Virus record (IMG/VR): IMGVR_UViG_3300032053_000032
Location: 1-64,000 of that record
Reading direction: 5' to 3' (one strand)
DNA length: 64,000 bases
Source of the DNA: a virus
A model generated the notes under the pieces. That model was not told the DNA's origin and searched no databases. It worked only from the letters and a program-made list of their open reading frames with translations. Within the stretch, counting starts at the first letter, position 1. The number at the start of each line of letters is the position of its first letter. Made by a program: the position numbers and the translations under genes. Positions 7,687 through 11,335 of the stretch are shown here, piece after piece.

Positions 7687-7801
7687 ATCACCAGACAACA
7701 TGGCCGCTTCGGACGTCGGCAAAATCTCGTCGTGCTCGTAACGCGCACGGCGGCGGTAACAGCCGGATGACCGGACGGGAAAACAGACGAAGGAGCAGAC
7801 C

Positions 7802-8614
7802 ATGCCGACCGATGAAGAGATCGCCGCCGCGAAGGCGGCAGAAGAGGCAGCCGCGAAAGCAGTTGCCGAGAAGCCCGTTGAGGGTACGCAGCCGACCCCG
7901 GATGGTGGGCTCAAGATCCTGAGCGCCGGTGCCTACAAGCGCATCAAGGACGACGCCGCCGCGAAGGGCGAGCGCCGCGCGCTGGAGAAGATGGCCCGCG
8001 AATCGGGTTTCGGCTCCGTTGAGGAGTTTCAGAAGGCCGCGAAGGGCTTCAAGGCTGGAACGACCACGCCGAAACCTGCCCCTGCTCCGCAGCAGAACGG
8101 GCAGCAGGCTCGCGATCCCGGCAGAGCACCCGCAGGGATGAGCAACCGCGAGAAGAACGCGTGGGACAAGGAGCGCGTCAAGATCCTCGCCGACTTCGAG
8201 GTGGTCAAGAAGCAGTCCGCCCTGAACGACAAGAAGTATCGCAAGGCGCGCAAAGACCTGGAGAACAAGGAGACGGAGATGGCGCTCCGCGAAGCTGCGG
8301 CAGCTGTCGGAATCCGCGACCTTGACTACGCCGTGCGCCTGCTCGAAAAGCACGTCGAGAATAAGGAAGAGAAGGATCTGGCCGGCTTCGATGAGGTCAA
8401 GTTCTTCGAGGGGCTGCGTACCCCGCATCCCTACCTGTTCGGCGAGCGCGTGACCCCGGCGCATACCGGAACCACCGCGCAGCCCCCGGTTCCGCCGAAG
8501 CCTGGCGACGCCGCCGCAGCTCATGCTCAGAACGGCAAGTTCGACGCGAGAAGCGCGACCGCAGAAGAAGTGCAGAAGCAGCTCGCCAAGCGCGGGATTC
8601 AGCCCGGCACCTAG
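7802..8614 (+). CDS. Scaffold-like protein
   Basis: This 270-residue protein is placed directly before the major capsid gene. The N-terminus is Ala/Glu/Lys helical, the middle is Pro/Gln-rich, a long charged coiled-coil-like helix follows (residues ~115-175), and the end is a basic helix (EEVQKQLAKRG). Low sequence complexity, high charge and position fit a head scaffolding protein that organises capsid subunits and is then lost. No catalytic protease motif was seen. Confidence 0.65.
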   Translation: MPTDEEIAAAKAAEEAAAKAVAEKPVEGTQPTPDGGLKILSAGAYKRIKDDAAAKGERRALEKMARESGFGSVEEFQKAAKGFKAGTTTPKPAPAPQQNGQQARDPGRAPAGMSNREKNAWDKERVKILADFEVVKKQSALNDKKYRKARKDLENKETEMALREAAAAVGIRDLDYAVRLLEKHVENKEEKDLAGFDEVKFFEGLRTPHPYLFGERVTPAHTGTTAQPPVPPKPGDAAAAHAQNGKFDARSATAEEVQKQLAKRGIQPGT

Positions 8615-8714: not shown

Positions 8715-10115
8715 GTGGCAGATTTCAGCACGATCCTTCAGTCCCCAGACATCCGCGCCATCGTTCAGGATGGCTTCCTGGAGCGCGCCTTCCACGACGG
8801 CCTCTTCCCCAAGATGCTGTTTCGTGGAGAGGCGACTCCGGTCCTCTGGCCCGCTCACGCCGGTGACAGCGCGATCTTCACGGGCGTCGCTCCCGTGAAG
8901 AAGAAGATGAAGCCGATCGTGCCTGGGCAGGACCCCGGCGCTTCCGACTACCAGAAGGAGCAGTGGACCGCTGTCCTGCAGACGTACGGCGACTCCATCC
9001 CGACGCACATGCCGTCGTCGCTCGTCGCCATCGCGTCGCTGTTCCTCCGCAACGCTCAGCAGCTCGGCCTCGGCGCCGCGCGCACGCTGAACTCGCACGT
9101 CCGCAACCGCCTCTACAACGCGGGGCAGTCCGGCTGGACCGTTGCCGACGGCGCGCAGGTCGCGGTGACGGTGCTCCGCGTGAAGCGCCTCAACGGCTTC
9201 ACCACGGCGCGCCAGACGGGTGCGAACGCCACCGTTCGCTACGATCTCGTTTCTGCGGCGAACCCGCTCGCAGTCCTCATCTTCAACACGGGCACGGGCC
9301 TGGAGCAGTCGGTCAACGTCATCGGCTTCACCGCCGACAACTCGGGCGATCAGACCGGCCCCGGCACGATCACCGTGGACGCGGCCGTCACCGTGTCGAA
9401 CCGCGACTACGTGATCTCCGTCGATCGCACGTTCCTGGTGCGCGTCGGCGGTGGCAACAAGGTCGACTCGATCACCTCGGCCTCGCTCCTCAAGCTCGCC
9501 GACCTCCGCTCGGGCGTGTCGCGCCTTCAGCAGGAGAACGTCCCGGAGCACCCGGATGGGTACTTCCACTGCCACCTCGACCCCACGTCGCAGGCGCAGG
9601 TCTTCAACGACGCTGAGTGGCAGCGCCTGCTCACGTCGATGCCCGATGGCTTCCAGTACAAGTCGCTGGCGATCGGCCAGCTCCTTGGCGCGGTCTACTT
9701 CCGCAACTCGGAGTGCCCGCAGATCGAGACGATCGACCCGAACGACGGCGTCACCTTCTCGCTCGACGACAACTTCGCGGGCGAGCTGACCGCGAACGGC
9801 CTCGCGTCCGGCGTCAAGGTGCACCGCCCGCTGTTCACCGCGCAGGGCGGGATCATGGAGTACTACCAGGACCTCGGCGCCCTCATCACCGATGCGGGCA
9901 TCAACGGCAAGGTCGGGCAGTTCCAGATCACGAACAACGGCATCGAGGTCATGAGCGACCGTGTTCAGCTCATCATCCGCGCGCCGCTCAACAAGTTCCA
10001 GGACACGGTCGACACGACCTACAAGTTCCAGGGCGACTGGCCGGTCCGCACGGACTCGACGACCGGCGACGCGGCTCGCTACAAGCGCCAGCTCGTCATC
10101 GAACATGGGGCATGA
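8715..10115 (+). CDS. Major capsid protein
   Basis: This 466-residue protein has a GTG start with GGAGG at 8704-8708 in the 12-mer AAGCTCGGAGGC, which also precedes the micro-gene 2 start. The region around PDGYFHCHLDPTSQ and the final beta-rich third recall the N4 gp56/HK97-fold capsid family; an inserted strand-rich domain occupies ~residues 160-240. Strong codon bias (GC3-rich), size, the scaffold neighbour upstream and a perfect terminator downstream fit the most expressed virion protein. A TTGCAC at 8646 may belong to its own promoter. Confidence 0.8.
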   Translation: MADFSTILQSPDIRAIVQDGFLERAFHDGLFPKMLFRGEATPVLWPAHAGDSAIFTGVAPVKKKMKPIVPGQDPGASDYQKEQWTAVLQTYGDSIPTHMPSSLVAIASLFLRNAQQLGLGAARTLNSHVRNRLYNAGQSGWTVADGAQVAVTVLRVKRLNGFTTARQTGANATVRYDLVSAANPLAVLIFNTGTGLEQSVNVIGFTADNSGDQTGPGTITVDAAVTVSNRDYVISVDRTFLVRVGGGNKVDSITSASLLKLADLRSGVSRLQQENVPEHPDGYFHCHLDPTSQAQVFNDAEWQRLLTSMPDGFQYKSLAIGQLLGAVYFRNSECPQIETIDPNDGVTFSLDDNFAGELTANGLASGVKVHRPLFTAQGGIMEYYQDLGALITDAGINGKVGQFQITNNGIEVMSDRVQLIIRAPLNKFQDTVDTTYKFQGDWPVRTDSTTGDAARYKRQLVIEHGA

Positions 10116-10133
10116 TTAAAGCGTTTTCTTACT

Positions 10134-10164
10134 AAGAAGCCCGCCAAGTGCGGGCTTCTTGCTT
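10134..10164 (+). terminator. Rho-independent terminator after the capsid gene
   Basis: AAGAAGCCCGC (10134-10144) pairs perfectly with GCGGGCTTCTT (10150-10160) over a 5-nt loop and is followed by GCTTTC. The 11-bp stem right after the capsid stop would end or attenuate the head transcript. Confidence 0.85.
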
Positions 10165-10187
10165 TCAGCCTTATCGCCTTGTAGACT
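10159..10187 (+). promoter_or_regulatory. Promoter overlapping the capsid terminator
   Basis: TTGCTT (10159-10164), 17 nt, TAGACT (10182-10187). It overlaps the terminator tail, so transcription stops and restarts here. Its start near 10194 would begin the structured RNA and continue into the connector genes. Confidence 0.55.
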
Positions 10188-10193
10188 CGATCC

Positions 10194-10590
10194 CACTTGA
10201 ACCTTCATCTTCAAAGTTCGACCGTGCGTGTCACGGTTGACATGGGCAGCGGACCCGGTTTTACCGGACCATCACGACGGATCCACGATGTGGAGCCGCG
10301 GCTGCCCCCCAGTCTGTGTGGGGACCCTCGTCGGTGCCTGCAACATCAACAGACTGGTATCGAGCCTTCGGGCTCAACCCGAAAGACCACACCTACGCTT
10401 GTCGGACGGCGTGGTCTTTCACCCCGGCTGCTGTTCTTCGGAACAAGGGTCACATGTTCGTCGTCGCTGATACGTCAGCACCGCGCTTGTCGCGTTTCGA
10501 CGTCCCGACCTGAGACGGAGCGACCGTATTACGGCAACCCTACGGACGGGTAGTCCGGTAAGCCGTCGTCATCGCTCCGTCTCGCGCCAC
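10194..10590 (+). ncRNA. Candidate large structured non-coding RNA
   Basis: No convincing gene lies in the ~490 bp between the capsid stop and the ATG at 10611, but many perfect helices do. They include ACCGTG/CACGGT (10221-10237), CCGGT/ACCGG (10255-10267), CCAGTCTG/CAGACTGG (10309-10316 with 10350-10357), GAGCC-TTCG-GGCTC (10362-10375), AAAGACCAC/GTGGTCTTT (10382-10390 with 10411-10419), TGTTC-TTCG-GAACA (10432-10445), GCTGA-TACG-TCAGC (10466-10479) and a 12-bp closing stem (10512-10523 with 10572-10583) that encloses two nested hairpins. UUCG and UACG loops point to selection on RNA. It could be a free RNA or a very long structured leader for the 10611 gene. Confidence 0.65.
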
Positions 10591-10610
10591 CTTTTGAAAG
10601 TAGGAGCTTC

Positions 10611-10916
10611 ATGGCCATCAAGTCGACCGACCCCCTGGAAGCCGCCAAGATCAACGCTCAAGGAGAGCCTGCGCGCCCACGGGTCAAGGCAGAGACGCCG
10701 AAGGTCATCGTCCCGGCGAAGATCTCTCGTATCGGTCCTGAGGTTCCTGAGACGTTCCAGAGGTACTACCGCTGCGTGAACGGCGGGCACATGTCCTGGA
10801 GCGGATCCGTGACGCACGTCCACCCGAACCAGATTCTGGATATGACCTGCTACGGCCCCGGCGCGCTCGACATGTTCCGCACCGCCGGCTTCGTACTGGA
10901 GCCCGTCACCAAGTAG
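10611..10916 (+). CDS. Small head or connector protein, family not recognised
   Basis: This 101-residue protein has a GTAGGAG ribosome-binding site. The N-terminal 40 residues are basic and probably flexible; the rest (RYYRCVNGGHMSW...) is a compact beta/alpha domain with two Cys. It is first of the run of connector genes and is read through from the structured RNA region. Confidence 0.55.
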   Translation: MAIKSTDPLEAAKINAQGEPARPRVKAETPKVIVPAKISRIGPEVPETFQRYYRCVNGGHMSWSGSVTHVHPNQILDMTCYGPGALDMFRTAGFVLEPVTK

Positions 10917-10933
10917 TCGGAAGGAGGTAGCTG

Positions 10934-11335
10934 ATGGCGTTCGACGACGCGACGAAGGAACGCATCCGCTACCACCTGGGCTACATGAACGTCCAGGTCG
11001 GATCTGGCCTGTCGTTCGGCCTCCCCATCCCGATCCAGACACTGTTTGTCGTCGACTTCGCGATGAACCGCATGATCGCCGCGGGCGAGCCGCGCGTCAT
11101 CCAGATCCTCGACGTCATGGATAAGATCGAGTGCCGACTCATCGAGTCGACGACGCGTCTTGCCGCATCTTCTCTCGGCGACCTGAAGCTCCGCGACGAC
11201 GAGCCGGATAAGCTGGAGCGTGAGTACTGCCGCTGGGGCATGCGCCTCGCCGGGCAGCTTGGATGCCCCATCTACGCGTACTCCGAGCGGTACGCGAAGT
11301 ACTCACGGGGTGGCAACATCCCCGTGCAGAGGTAG
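10934..11335 (+). CDS. Probable head-tail connector protein
   Basis: This 133-residue, mostly helical protein sits behind GGAGGTAG. It is followed by three genes whose order (connector, stopper, tail completion, terminator) matches the usual neck block between capsid and sheath. The C-terminus has YCRWGMRLAGQLG. The family is not recognised with certainty; the role comes from position. Confidence 0.5.
   Translation: MAFDDATKERIRYHLGYMNVQVGSGLSFGLPIPIQTLFVVDFAMNRMIAAGEPRVIQILDVMDKIECRLIESTTRLAASSLGDLKLRDDEPDKLEREYCRWGMRLAGQLGCPIYAYSERYAKYSRGGNIPVQR

Follow-up and report, generated by a model that had tools for sequence, protein, structure and literature searches.

The gene for the major capsid protein (MCP) of an uncultured phage is separated from its downstream neighbour, p101, by a stretch (positions 10116-10610) that raises two questions: whether it carries a structured RNA, and whether such an RNA would be a product of its own or a part of the head-gene messages. 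The window analysed here is a stretch of 64,000 nucleotides of this uncultured phage genome, whose source record in IMG/VR comprises 85,027 bases. The phage is contractile-tailed and uncultured; the genes around the stretch are its head module, and a tail sheath gene lies farther downstream of p133. The genes concerned are as follows.

7802-8614, + strand: head scaffolding protein gene (phrog_194, 1e-5; PF06810 Phage_scaffold, 7.6e-8, at 32.9 bits slightly under the 35-bit cut-off)
8715-10115, + strand: MCP gene (phrog_1357 major head protein, 3.9e-12; relatives)
10611-10916, + strand: p101, uncharacterised, with its start codon 27 nt past helix P1 (see below)
10934-11335, + strand: p133, the conserved next gene, which served to locate relatives

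PHROG and Pfam searches assigned p101 to no family, and its predicted fold (AF2 pLDDT >90 in the C-terminal domain) had no PDB match under E 1. In the p101 family (the window and 28 relatives), the N-terminus is variable and a C-terminal domain of ~50 residues is conserved (YRV..S..GQ.T.L.AG.V....YG..G..RL...GV.LE.V). HNH-endonuclease-like ORFs occur between MCP and p133 in five relatives (L044, L135, L116, L019 and L029), either on the 5' side of the RNA or past p101, and this slot looks like a hot spot for homing endonucleases. The MCP group also includes a contig of an Armatimonadetes MAG from peat (fen) (L145, PMZA01000066.1), a weak hint at the host.

The stretch behind the capsid gene

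All helices named in the initial annotation, among them three UUCG/UACG hairpins, a 12-bp stem and an 8-bp pairing, are present in the sequence, and its claim of a structured RNA is upheld both by shuffle z-scores and by covarying relatives. The stretch 10116-10610 folds with an MFE of -204.7 kcal/mol (z -5.17), and 0 of 100 dinucleotide shuffles were equally low; over 35 related sequences including the window, the mean z is -6.4, and 32 of the 35 lie below -3. From 5' to 3', the features are these.

10134-10160, + strand: 11-bp perfect inverted repeat (10134-10144/10150-10160) directly after MCP, terminator-like, with T's within the stem
10161-10595, + strand: structured RNA between MCP and p101, 5' end undefined (folding z-scores above)
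10244-10307, + strand: candidate variant of the core hairpin (unproven), GGGCAGC/GCUGCCC enclosing two small hairpins (R1 model, MFE)
10310-10356, + strand: 8-bp pairing CAGUCUGU/ACAGACUG (10310-10317/10349-10356), from sequence and MFE, without comparative support
10362-10375, + strand: UUCG hairpin GAGCC-UUCG-GGCUC (sequence)
10432-10445, + strand: UUCG hairpin UGUUC-UUCG-GAACA (sequence)
10467-10478, + strand: UACG hairpin CUGA-UACG-UCAG (sequence)
10512-10583, + strand: 3' domain, with P1 (10512-10523/10572-10583), P2 (10531-10535/10562-10566) and a pseudoknot in between (R2 and R3 models, family covariation)
10538-10557, + strand: H-type pseudoknot, S1 CCC 10538-10540/GGG 10548-10550 and S2 CGGAC 10543-10547/GUCCG 10553-10557 (family comparison)
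10584-10595, + strand: conserved 3' tail GCGCCACCUUUU, a closing-helix strand in relatives followed by a pyrimidine tract (comparison with relatives)

The 12-bp stem, which had been taken to close the whole RNA, exists but is P1 of the 3' domain. A similar split applies to the transcription signals that had been proposed for an independent transcript starting near 10194. The perfect inverted repeat is real, and so are TTGCTT (10159-10164) and TAGACT (10182-10187) at a spacing of 17 nt, but a consensus scan of 9900-10950 called 0 terminators and 0 promoters. Because the promoter is unsupported, so is the independent transcript.

The lack of coding character noted earlier is borne out. The three ORFs of the stretch (65-118 aa) are without relatives, their best match across 81 other non-redundant intervals having an E of only 0.19, whereas p101 reached E values down to 1e-11 in the same comparison. 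Insertions and deletions disregard the frame, with 15 of 16 gaps between close relatives (five pairs) not being multiples of 3.

Known RNA families were compared using Rfam 15 (4227 families). At the gathering score there were 0 matches in the window, and the capsid-slot RNA had no match in 20 related loci; a permissive search of the stretch (E<=5) returned no GOLLD, ROOL or phi29 pRNA. The phi29 pRNA is likewise a structured phage RNA tied to head function, but it differs in place and in architecture, and its Rfam model does not match the slot RNA. With the stretch as BLASTN query, phage and plasmid sequences gave only short GC-rich or terminator-like matches. The available text of four articles (PMC12286853, PMC9241854, PMC7567579, PMC2864571) describes no structured phage RNAs at capsid or scaffold genes, and none emerged from the full-text literature searched by title and abstract, subscription papers being outside this scope. 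The conserved folded RNA behind the capsid gene is in no RNA database within the scope of Rfam.

A conserved RNA in the MCP-p133 slot

A large group of uncultured tailed phages shares a conserved structured RNA in the MCP-p101 stretch. Its parts are the core hairpin, the closing helix and a 3' domain with an H-type pseudoknot as its cap. Searches with MCP and p133 yielded 136 usable intervals, running from the MCP stop to the p133 start (or the locus end), and 82 after near-copies had been merged. The RNA-carrying relatives have MCP identities of 42-67%. Interval lengths are bimodal, with one set at 388-490 nt, hardly more than p101, and the other mostly at 550-1000 nt. A core hairpin of the form GC-AAACCC-stem-loop-stem-(U/C)GG-AACC-GC within a freely varying stem was found in 29 of the 82 intervals, all in the long set. 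At E <= 0.024, the covariance model R1, trained on these 29 sequences, recognised 41 of 91 sources, namely the training sequences and 12 from outside training, some of them near-copies. Standard pairs fill 96.0% of the 454 alignment cells, against only 33-40% pairing when partners were slid as a control, and the covariation score is 0.554 versus 0.109 +- 0.017 in shuffles. The internal loop (AAA/AACC) and the flanking GC and CC/GG pairs are nearly invariant. Core variants exist in three further relatives (L116, L104 and L016, with AACUCC/UGGAUC; by eye).

In the window, the core hairpin GC-AAA-CCC...UGG-AACC-GC is not recognised. The GGGCAGC/GCUGCCC stem at 10244-10307 encloses GGACCC..UGGAGCC and could be an expanded variant of it, the best R1 alignment of 3.3 bits being no evidence for this. 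Two side observations concern the relatives. Ahead of the core there is often a hairpin whose loop reads (U)YCGGUC, TCGGTC being present in 26 of 36 core-positive sequences versus 8.5 expected. In L130, L051 and L128, a clade whose intervals measure 551 nt and whose p101 is shortened, the slot seems to carry a compact, different fold with a possible pseudoknot of CGU/ACG type, seen in part by eye.

The genome is GC-rich, and hairpins come cheaply in single sequences, so that any GC-rich intergenic stretch might be expected to fold well. The dinucleotide-shuffle z-scores and the covariation tests refute such a composition artefact for the family and make it extremely improbable as an explanation, although it may apply to the 5' half of the window's RNA taken alone. 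The claim of a structured RNA could have failed on a lack of covariation or on a translated gene; the relatives covary, and coding character is absent.

Where the core lies was established by scanning 2.9 million viral contigs for DNA patterns, blind to genes. The strict core pattern was present in 25 contigs, in 25 of 25 on the MCP strand and within the MCP-p133 slot (two of these contigs end before MCP and three before p133). A looser pattern found 51 contigs, 50 of them with the match in the MCP-p133 slot and on the MCP strand; the single match outside the slot is stemless and apparently due to chance.

The slot RNA is variable in its 5' part and fixed in its 3' part. In well-preserved members, the 3' domain runs from P1 (usually 10-18 bp) through an internal loop, P2 (4-9 bp) and a second internal loop to P3 (usually 5-7 bp); the 5' strand of the second internal loop is usually CCC, and the apical loop usually opens with GGG. 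Whole-domain MAFFT alignments left P1 and P2 unaligned, and a descriptor with shuffle controls, together with short models, was used instead. Ignoring loops, the P1-P2-P3 descriptor scored at least 22 in 31 of 86 intervals versus 10 of 430 shuffled ones; the window scored 20.5, and 58 of the 430 shuffled intervals reach 20. In 28 of the 31 positives, three or more Watson-Crick pairs join the internal to the apical loop, a feature that the descriptor does not demand, versus a mean of 19.0 and a maximum of 25 in 2000 loop swaps. The paired letters vary (CCC/GGG, CUG/CAG, CCG/CGG, CGCG/CGCG, CGAG/CUCG and GCCC/GGGC). Read as S1-L1-S2-L3, the arrangement is an H-type pseudoknot, in which L1 usually has 2-3 nt with A at its end, S2 starts with C, and G comes after it. 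With the pseudoknot demanded, a score of 28 was attained in 14 of 82 intervals versus 0 of 410 shuffles, the window scoring 24.8.

The 3' pseudoknot domain of this family, directly ahead of p101, is present in the window, where S2 is flanked by the invariant A10542 and G10558. For models trained without the window, this pseudoknot was the best match in its 505 nt (R2, 14.0 bits, E 0.0065; R3, 14.9 bits, E 0.0012); when 670 kb were searched, the R3 match had an E of 1.6, and it is significant only inside its own interval. One relative (L125) has the 3' domain in a short RNA, and the pseudoknot domain may therefore be the minimal unit.

The closing helix joins the strand right after P1 (GCCACC, GCUGCC, GCCGC, CCAUC and others) to the strand after the core (GGUGGC, GGCAGC, GCGGC, GAUGG and others). 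Over 22 sequences with both landmarks, its summed score is 290 versus a maximum of 286 in 1000 permutations, and a score of 12 is attained by 17 of the 22 versus a mean of 10.7. The closing-helix strand is followed by a pyrimidine tract (CACCUUUU in the window) and then by the p101 ribosome-binding site. From the end of P1 to the p101 start codon the median distance is 30 nt (18-36 nt in 25 of 32, >50 nt in four).

Non-Watson-Crick positions in P1 are G-U in 22 cases versus A-C in 4, with stem ends set with G-U allowed, an excess that on sequence grounds favours the MCP strand; folding energy prefers neither strand (the MCP strand in 16 of 35). Of the 80 rows of an MCP tree, 32 have the core, 4 a variant and 8 the 3' domain alone, while 10 have short intervals and 26 have long ones without recognised RNA. 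The slot RNA is scattered over deep MCP branches, including a clade at ~45% MCP identity, tree support being weak mid-tree. This distribution is read as that of an old element with several losses, and horizontal gain is also conceivable.

The initial annotation had likened the RNA to the ornate phage RNAs GOLLD and ROOL, which would make it a free-standing non-coding RNA, produced in bulk late in infection and acting in trans. The slot RNA does resemble these in being large, multi-domain and phage-encoded, with UUCG hairpins and no coding character, and the first hairpin behind MCP could end the MCP message. It differs in being smaller and in having no covariance-model match. According to the available text of PMC12286853, GOLLD and ROOL usually lie close to tRNA genes; the slot RNA, in contrast, always lies in the capsid slot and on one strand, not in tRNA islands, and the window has no tRNA genes. 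These points, together with the absence of a promoter in the consensus scan, the closeness to p101 and a pseudoknot design common to scaffold and MCP leaders (next section), favour a cis element and make a free RNA unlikely.

Pseudoknots of the same design at scaffold and capsid genes

A pseudoknot of the same design lies where scaffold genes start or directly precedes MCP genes, in this phage and in others. Model R3, trained on 3' domains only, gave 71 matches, 15 of which are scaffold-leader sites ~1 kb upstream of MCP. The copy in the window lies outside 10116-10610.

7742-7766, + strand: scaffold-leader pseudoknot, 36 nt ahead of the scaffold ATG, S1 CGC 7742-7744/GCG 7753-7755 and S2 CGGC 7748-7751/GCCG 7762-7765, with flanking A7747 and G7766 (alignment of relatives)

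The strongly conserved leader consensus, ACGC-n-ACGRCGGCGGUNAANAGYCGG, folds into S1 CGC/GCG, an L1 ending in A, and S2 CGRC/GYCG with G next. In an alignment of 27 sequences, 156 of 156 cells are paired, and the variable pair is AU in 15, GC in 10 and UA in 1; S1 is invariant, its pairing being supported by complementarity and not by covariation. Phages without the large RNA also have this leader (for instance L021, L022, L048 and L098). The shared topology, the flanking A and G and low-scoring model matches (E 0.07-5) weakly suggest kinship between the 3' domain and the scaffold leader. A search of the whole window for further pseudoknots gave nothing above shuffles. The scaffold-leader element, including the leaders of cultured phages, belongs to no Rfam family; the single match, an int-alpA RNA (RF02996) at 7136-7202 of L230, a contig that also has a variant scaffold motif, lies elsewhere.

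A pattern scan without S1 found 59 contigs, with 44 matches before the scaffold or MCP genes of this group, 5 cut off and 10 elsewhere. The S1 strand, which is not in that pattern, stands at the expected distance in 53 of the 59; four of the six misses (L206, L214, L217 and L251) have ACGC a few bases farther, and two (L223 and L230) are without it. With S1 included and the two letters of the variable S2 pair left open, the scan matched 79 contigs, 76 of them with a Watson-Crick pair (AT 47, GC 15, CG 12, TA 2); the three unpaired ones (L263 and L271, which share one sequence, and L261) are apparently chance matches. The outer stem also covaries, scoring 627.5 over 50 distinct contexts versus a maximum of 587.5 in 1000 permutations.

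By place, 52 of the 79 precede scaffold or MCP genes of the wider group (31 scaffold leaders, and 21 at 48-72 nt before the MCP start), 10 lie inside scaffold reading frames, 6 are cut off and 11 are other. In seven of these 11 (L259, L274, L277, L262, L264, L281 and L284), the element stands 13-17 nt ahead of an ORF; five of these ORFs are distinct, and by PHROGs 5 of 5 encode head scaffolding proteins. The 21 MCP leaders belong to more distant relatives, among them L254, L256, L268, L270, L280 and L282. One contig (L211/L280) has the pseudoknot before the gene preceding MCP, which has a scaffold-like C-terminal part, and again before MCP.

The in-frame pseudoknots lie roughly 15-50 codons past the scaffold start, and the genes concerned encode PF06810/phrog_2303 proteins. 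Here the S2 pairing survives amino-acid changes, GAC..UCG being read as D..S and GGC..CCG as G..P. A cause at the protein level alone (the motif DGGEQSG of other phages) was rejected, since the motif is outside the annotated gene in this group, GAC..UCG and GGC..CCG change together, and true leaders exist elsewhere.

The strongly conserved unpaired letters of core hairpin and pseudoknot would suit a riboswitch-like leader that senses a small molecule of the infected cell. Among the 79 classified matches, however, the element stands next to head morphogenesis genes only and to no metabolic gene, which makes this explanation very unlikely.

Cultured phages carry the element as well. BLASTN with one leader led to Mycobacterium phage Avani (L285 2440-2580), where the match falls in a 77-nt gap ahead of gp6, whose annotation is head scaffolding protein. 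The sequence of this leader is ACGCC-CA-CGUCC-GGCG-GUCAAC-GGACG-GACC-AGGAGG, and with it as the query 19 records were retrieved, from 14 Mycobacterium, 3 Gordonia and 2 Rhodococcus phages. In Gordonia phages ODay and Malisha, the element precedes the annotated scaffolding gene, and in Rhodococcus phage ReT1v-1 it lies ahead of a DUF4355 gene, with S2 CAUCC/GGGUG. The remaining BLASTN matches in cultured phages, for example in endolysin and tape measure genes, are short and weak. By MCP, the cultured relatives are Streptomyces phage Kromp (29%) and Komagataeibacter phages (24%); these have a gap of 58 nt or none behind MCP and hence no large RNA.

Possible roles in head-gene expression

The best explanation, at a probability of roughly 0.55, is that the slot RNA and the leader pseudoknots are cis-acting post-transcriptional elements of head-gene mRNAs, and not free RNAs of the GOLLD/ROOL type. 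It is preferred because of the fixed slot and strand, the 3' end that lies a median of 30 nt before the p101 start, and the occurrence of the same pseudoknot design at scaffold and MCP genes; the mechanism and the ligand given below are putative. In gene 32 of T4 and RB69, according to the available text of PMC535899, an H-type pseudoknot 5' of the ribosome-binding site is bound by gp32, and the one in T4 additionally overlaps a reading frame beside a homing endonuclease. An H-type pseudoknot 5' of the ribosome-binding site is likewise found in the scaffold leaders and in the p101 leader, in both systems as a small structure upstream of a phage gene start. The two differ in that the T4 operator serves a single-strand binding protein, whereas head genes with several copies per operon are concerned here, and no sequence relation is seen.

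By analogy, the pseudoknot beside the ribosome-binding site would be read by a trans factor, as the gene 32 pseudoknot is by gp32, that represses or meters translation of the next gene. The Avani pseudoknot ends 4-5 nt before AGGAGG, and its stabilisation would therefore hinder ribosome loading. The P22 scaffolding protein reportedly represses its own synthesis post-transcriptionally, a finding said to go back to Wyckoff and Casjens in 1985, and such control would explain the gene company that the pseudoknot keeps. On the strength of gp32 and P22 self-repression, the likeliest ligand would be a head protein, the scaffolding protein first, and unused scaffold would shut off synthesis of itself and of other head genes. 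In the MCP-p101 slot, the pseudoknot would end a larger RNA. The remaining domains of that RNA (the first hairpins, the core and the closing helix) may shield the very abundant MCP message from p101 and what lies behind it, or make that message more stable, and may set the level of p101 and of the genes after it.

Two observations speak against the cis-acting explanation. The large RNA is dispensable in relatives, being absent from 10 of the 80 rows of the MCP tree and unrecognised in 26 more, and the window has no recognisable core hairpin. Moreover, a translating ribosome would melt the in-frame pseudoknots (10/79), which thus count against initiation being simply blocked and leave room for a role in transcription or RNA stability. 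The put RNA of phage HK022 binds RNA polymerase and lets it read on. An element of this kind, or one that protects the MCP 3' end or separates it from the downstream message, would be indifferent to reading frame, in keeping with the pseudoknots within scaffold genes, and would suit a large RNA with a variable 5' and a fixed 3' part behind the most abundant message. It fits poorly with pseudoknots that lie very near ribosome-binding sites, and terminator-like hairpins are no general feature of the slot, standing right behind MCP in 5 of 30 core-positive relatives versus 2.0 in shuffles. Such a role is considered rather unlikely.

An extension of the cis-acting explanation is put forward as a tentative possibility. 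In unrelated tailed phages, one pseudoknot design, placed at scaffold and capsid genes and at genes behind the capsid gene, and at times within the scaffold frame, might sense unassembled head protein and so couple translation to assembly, forming a phage-wide head-assembly regulon in which the 430-nt RNA would be an elaborated sensor.

The slot RNA adds a large RNA family in a region of phage genomes to which annotation pipelines assign nothing. Tailed phages need set ratios of scaffold, capsid and connector proteins, and the post-transcriptional means by which these are reached are largely unknown. With a conserved RNA element that marks exactly these genes across phages, cultured phages of Mycobacterium, Gordonia and Rhodococcus among them, control coupled to assembly becomes open to direct testing.
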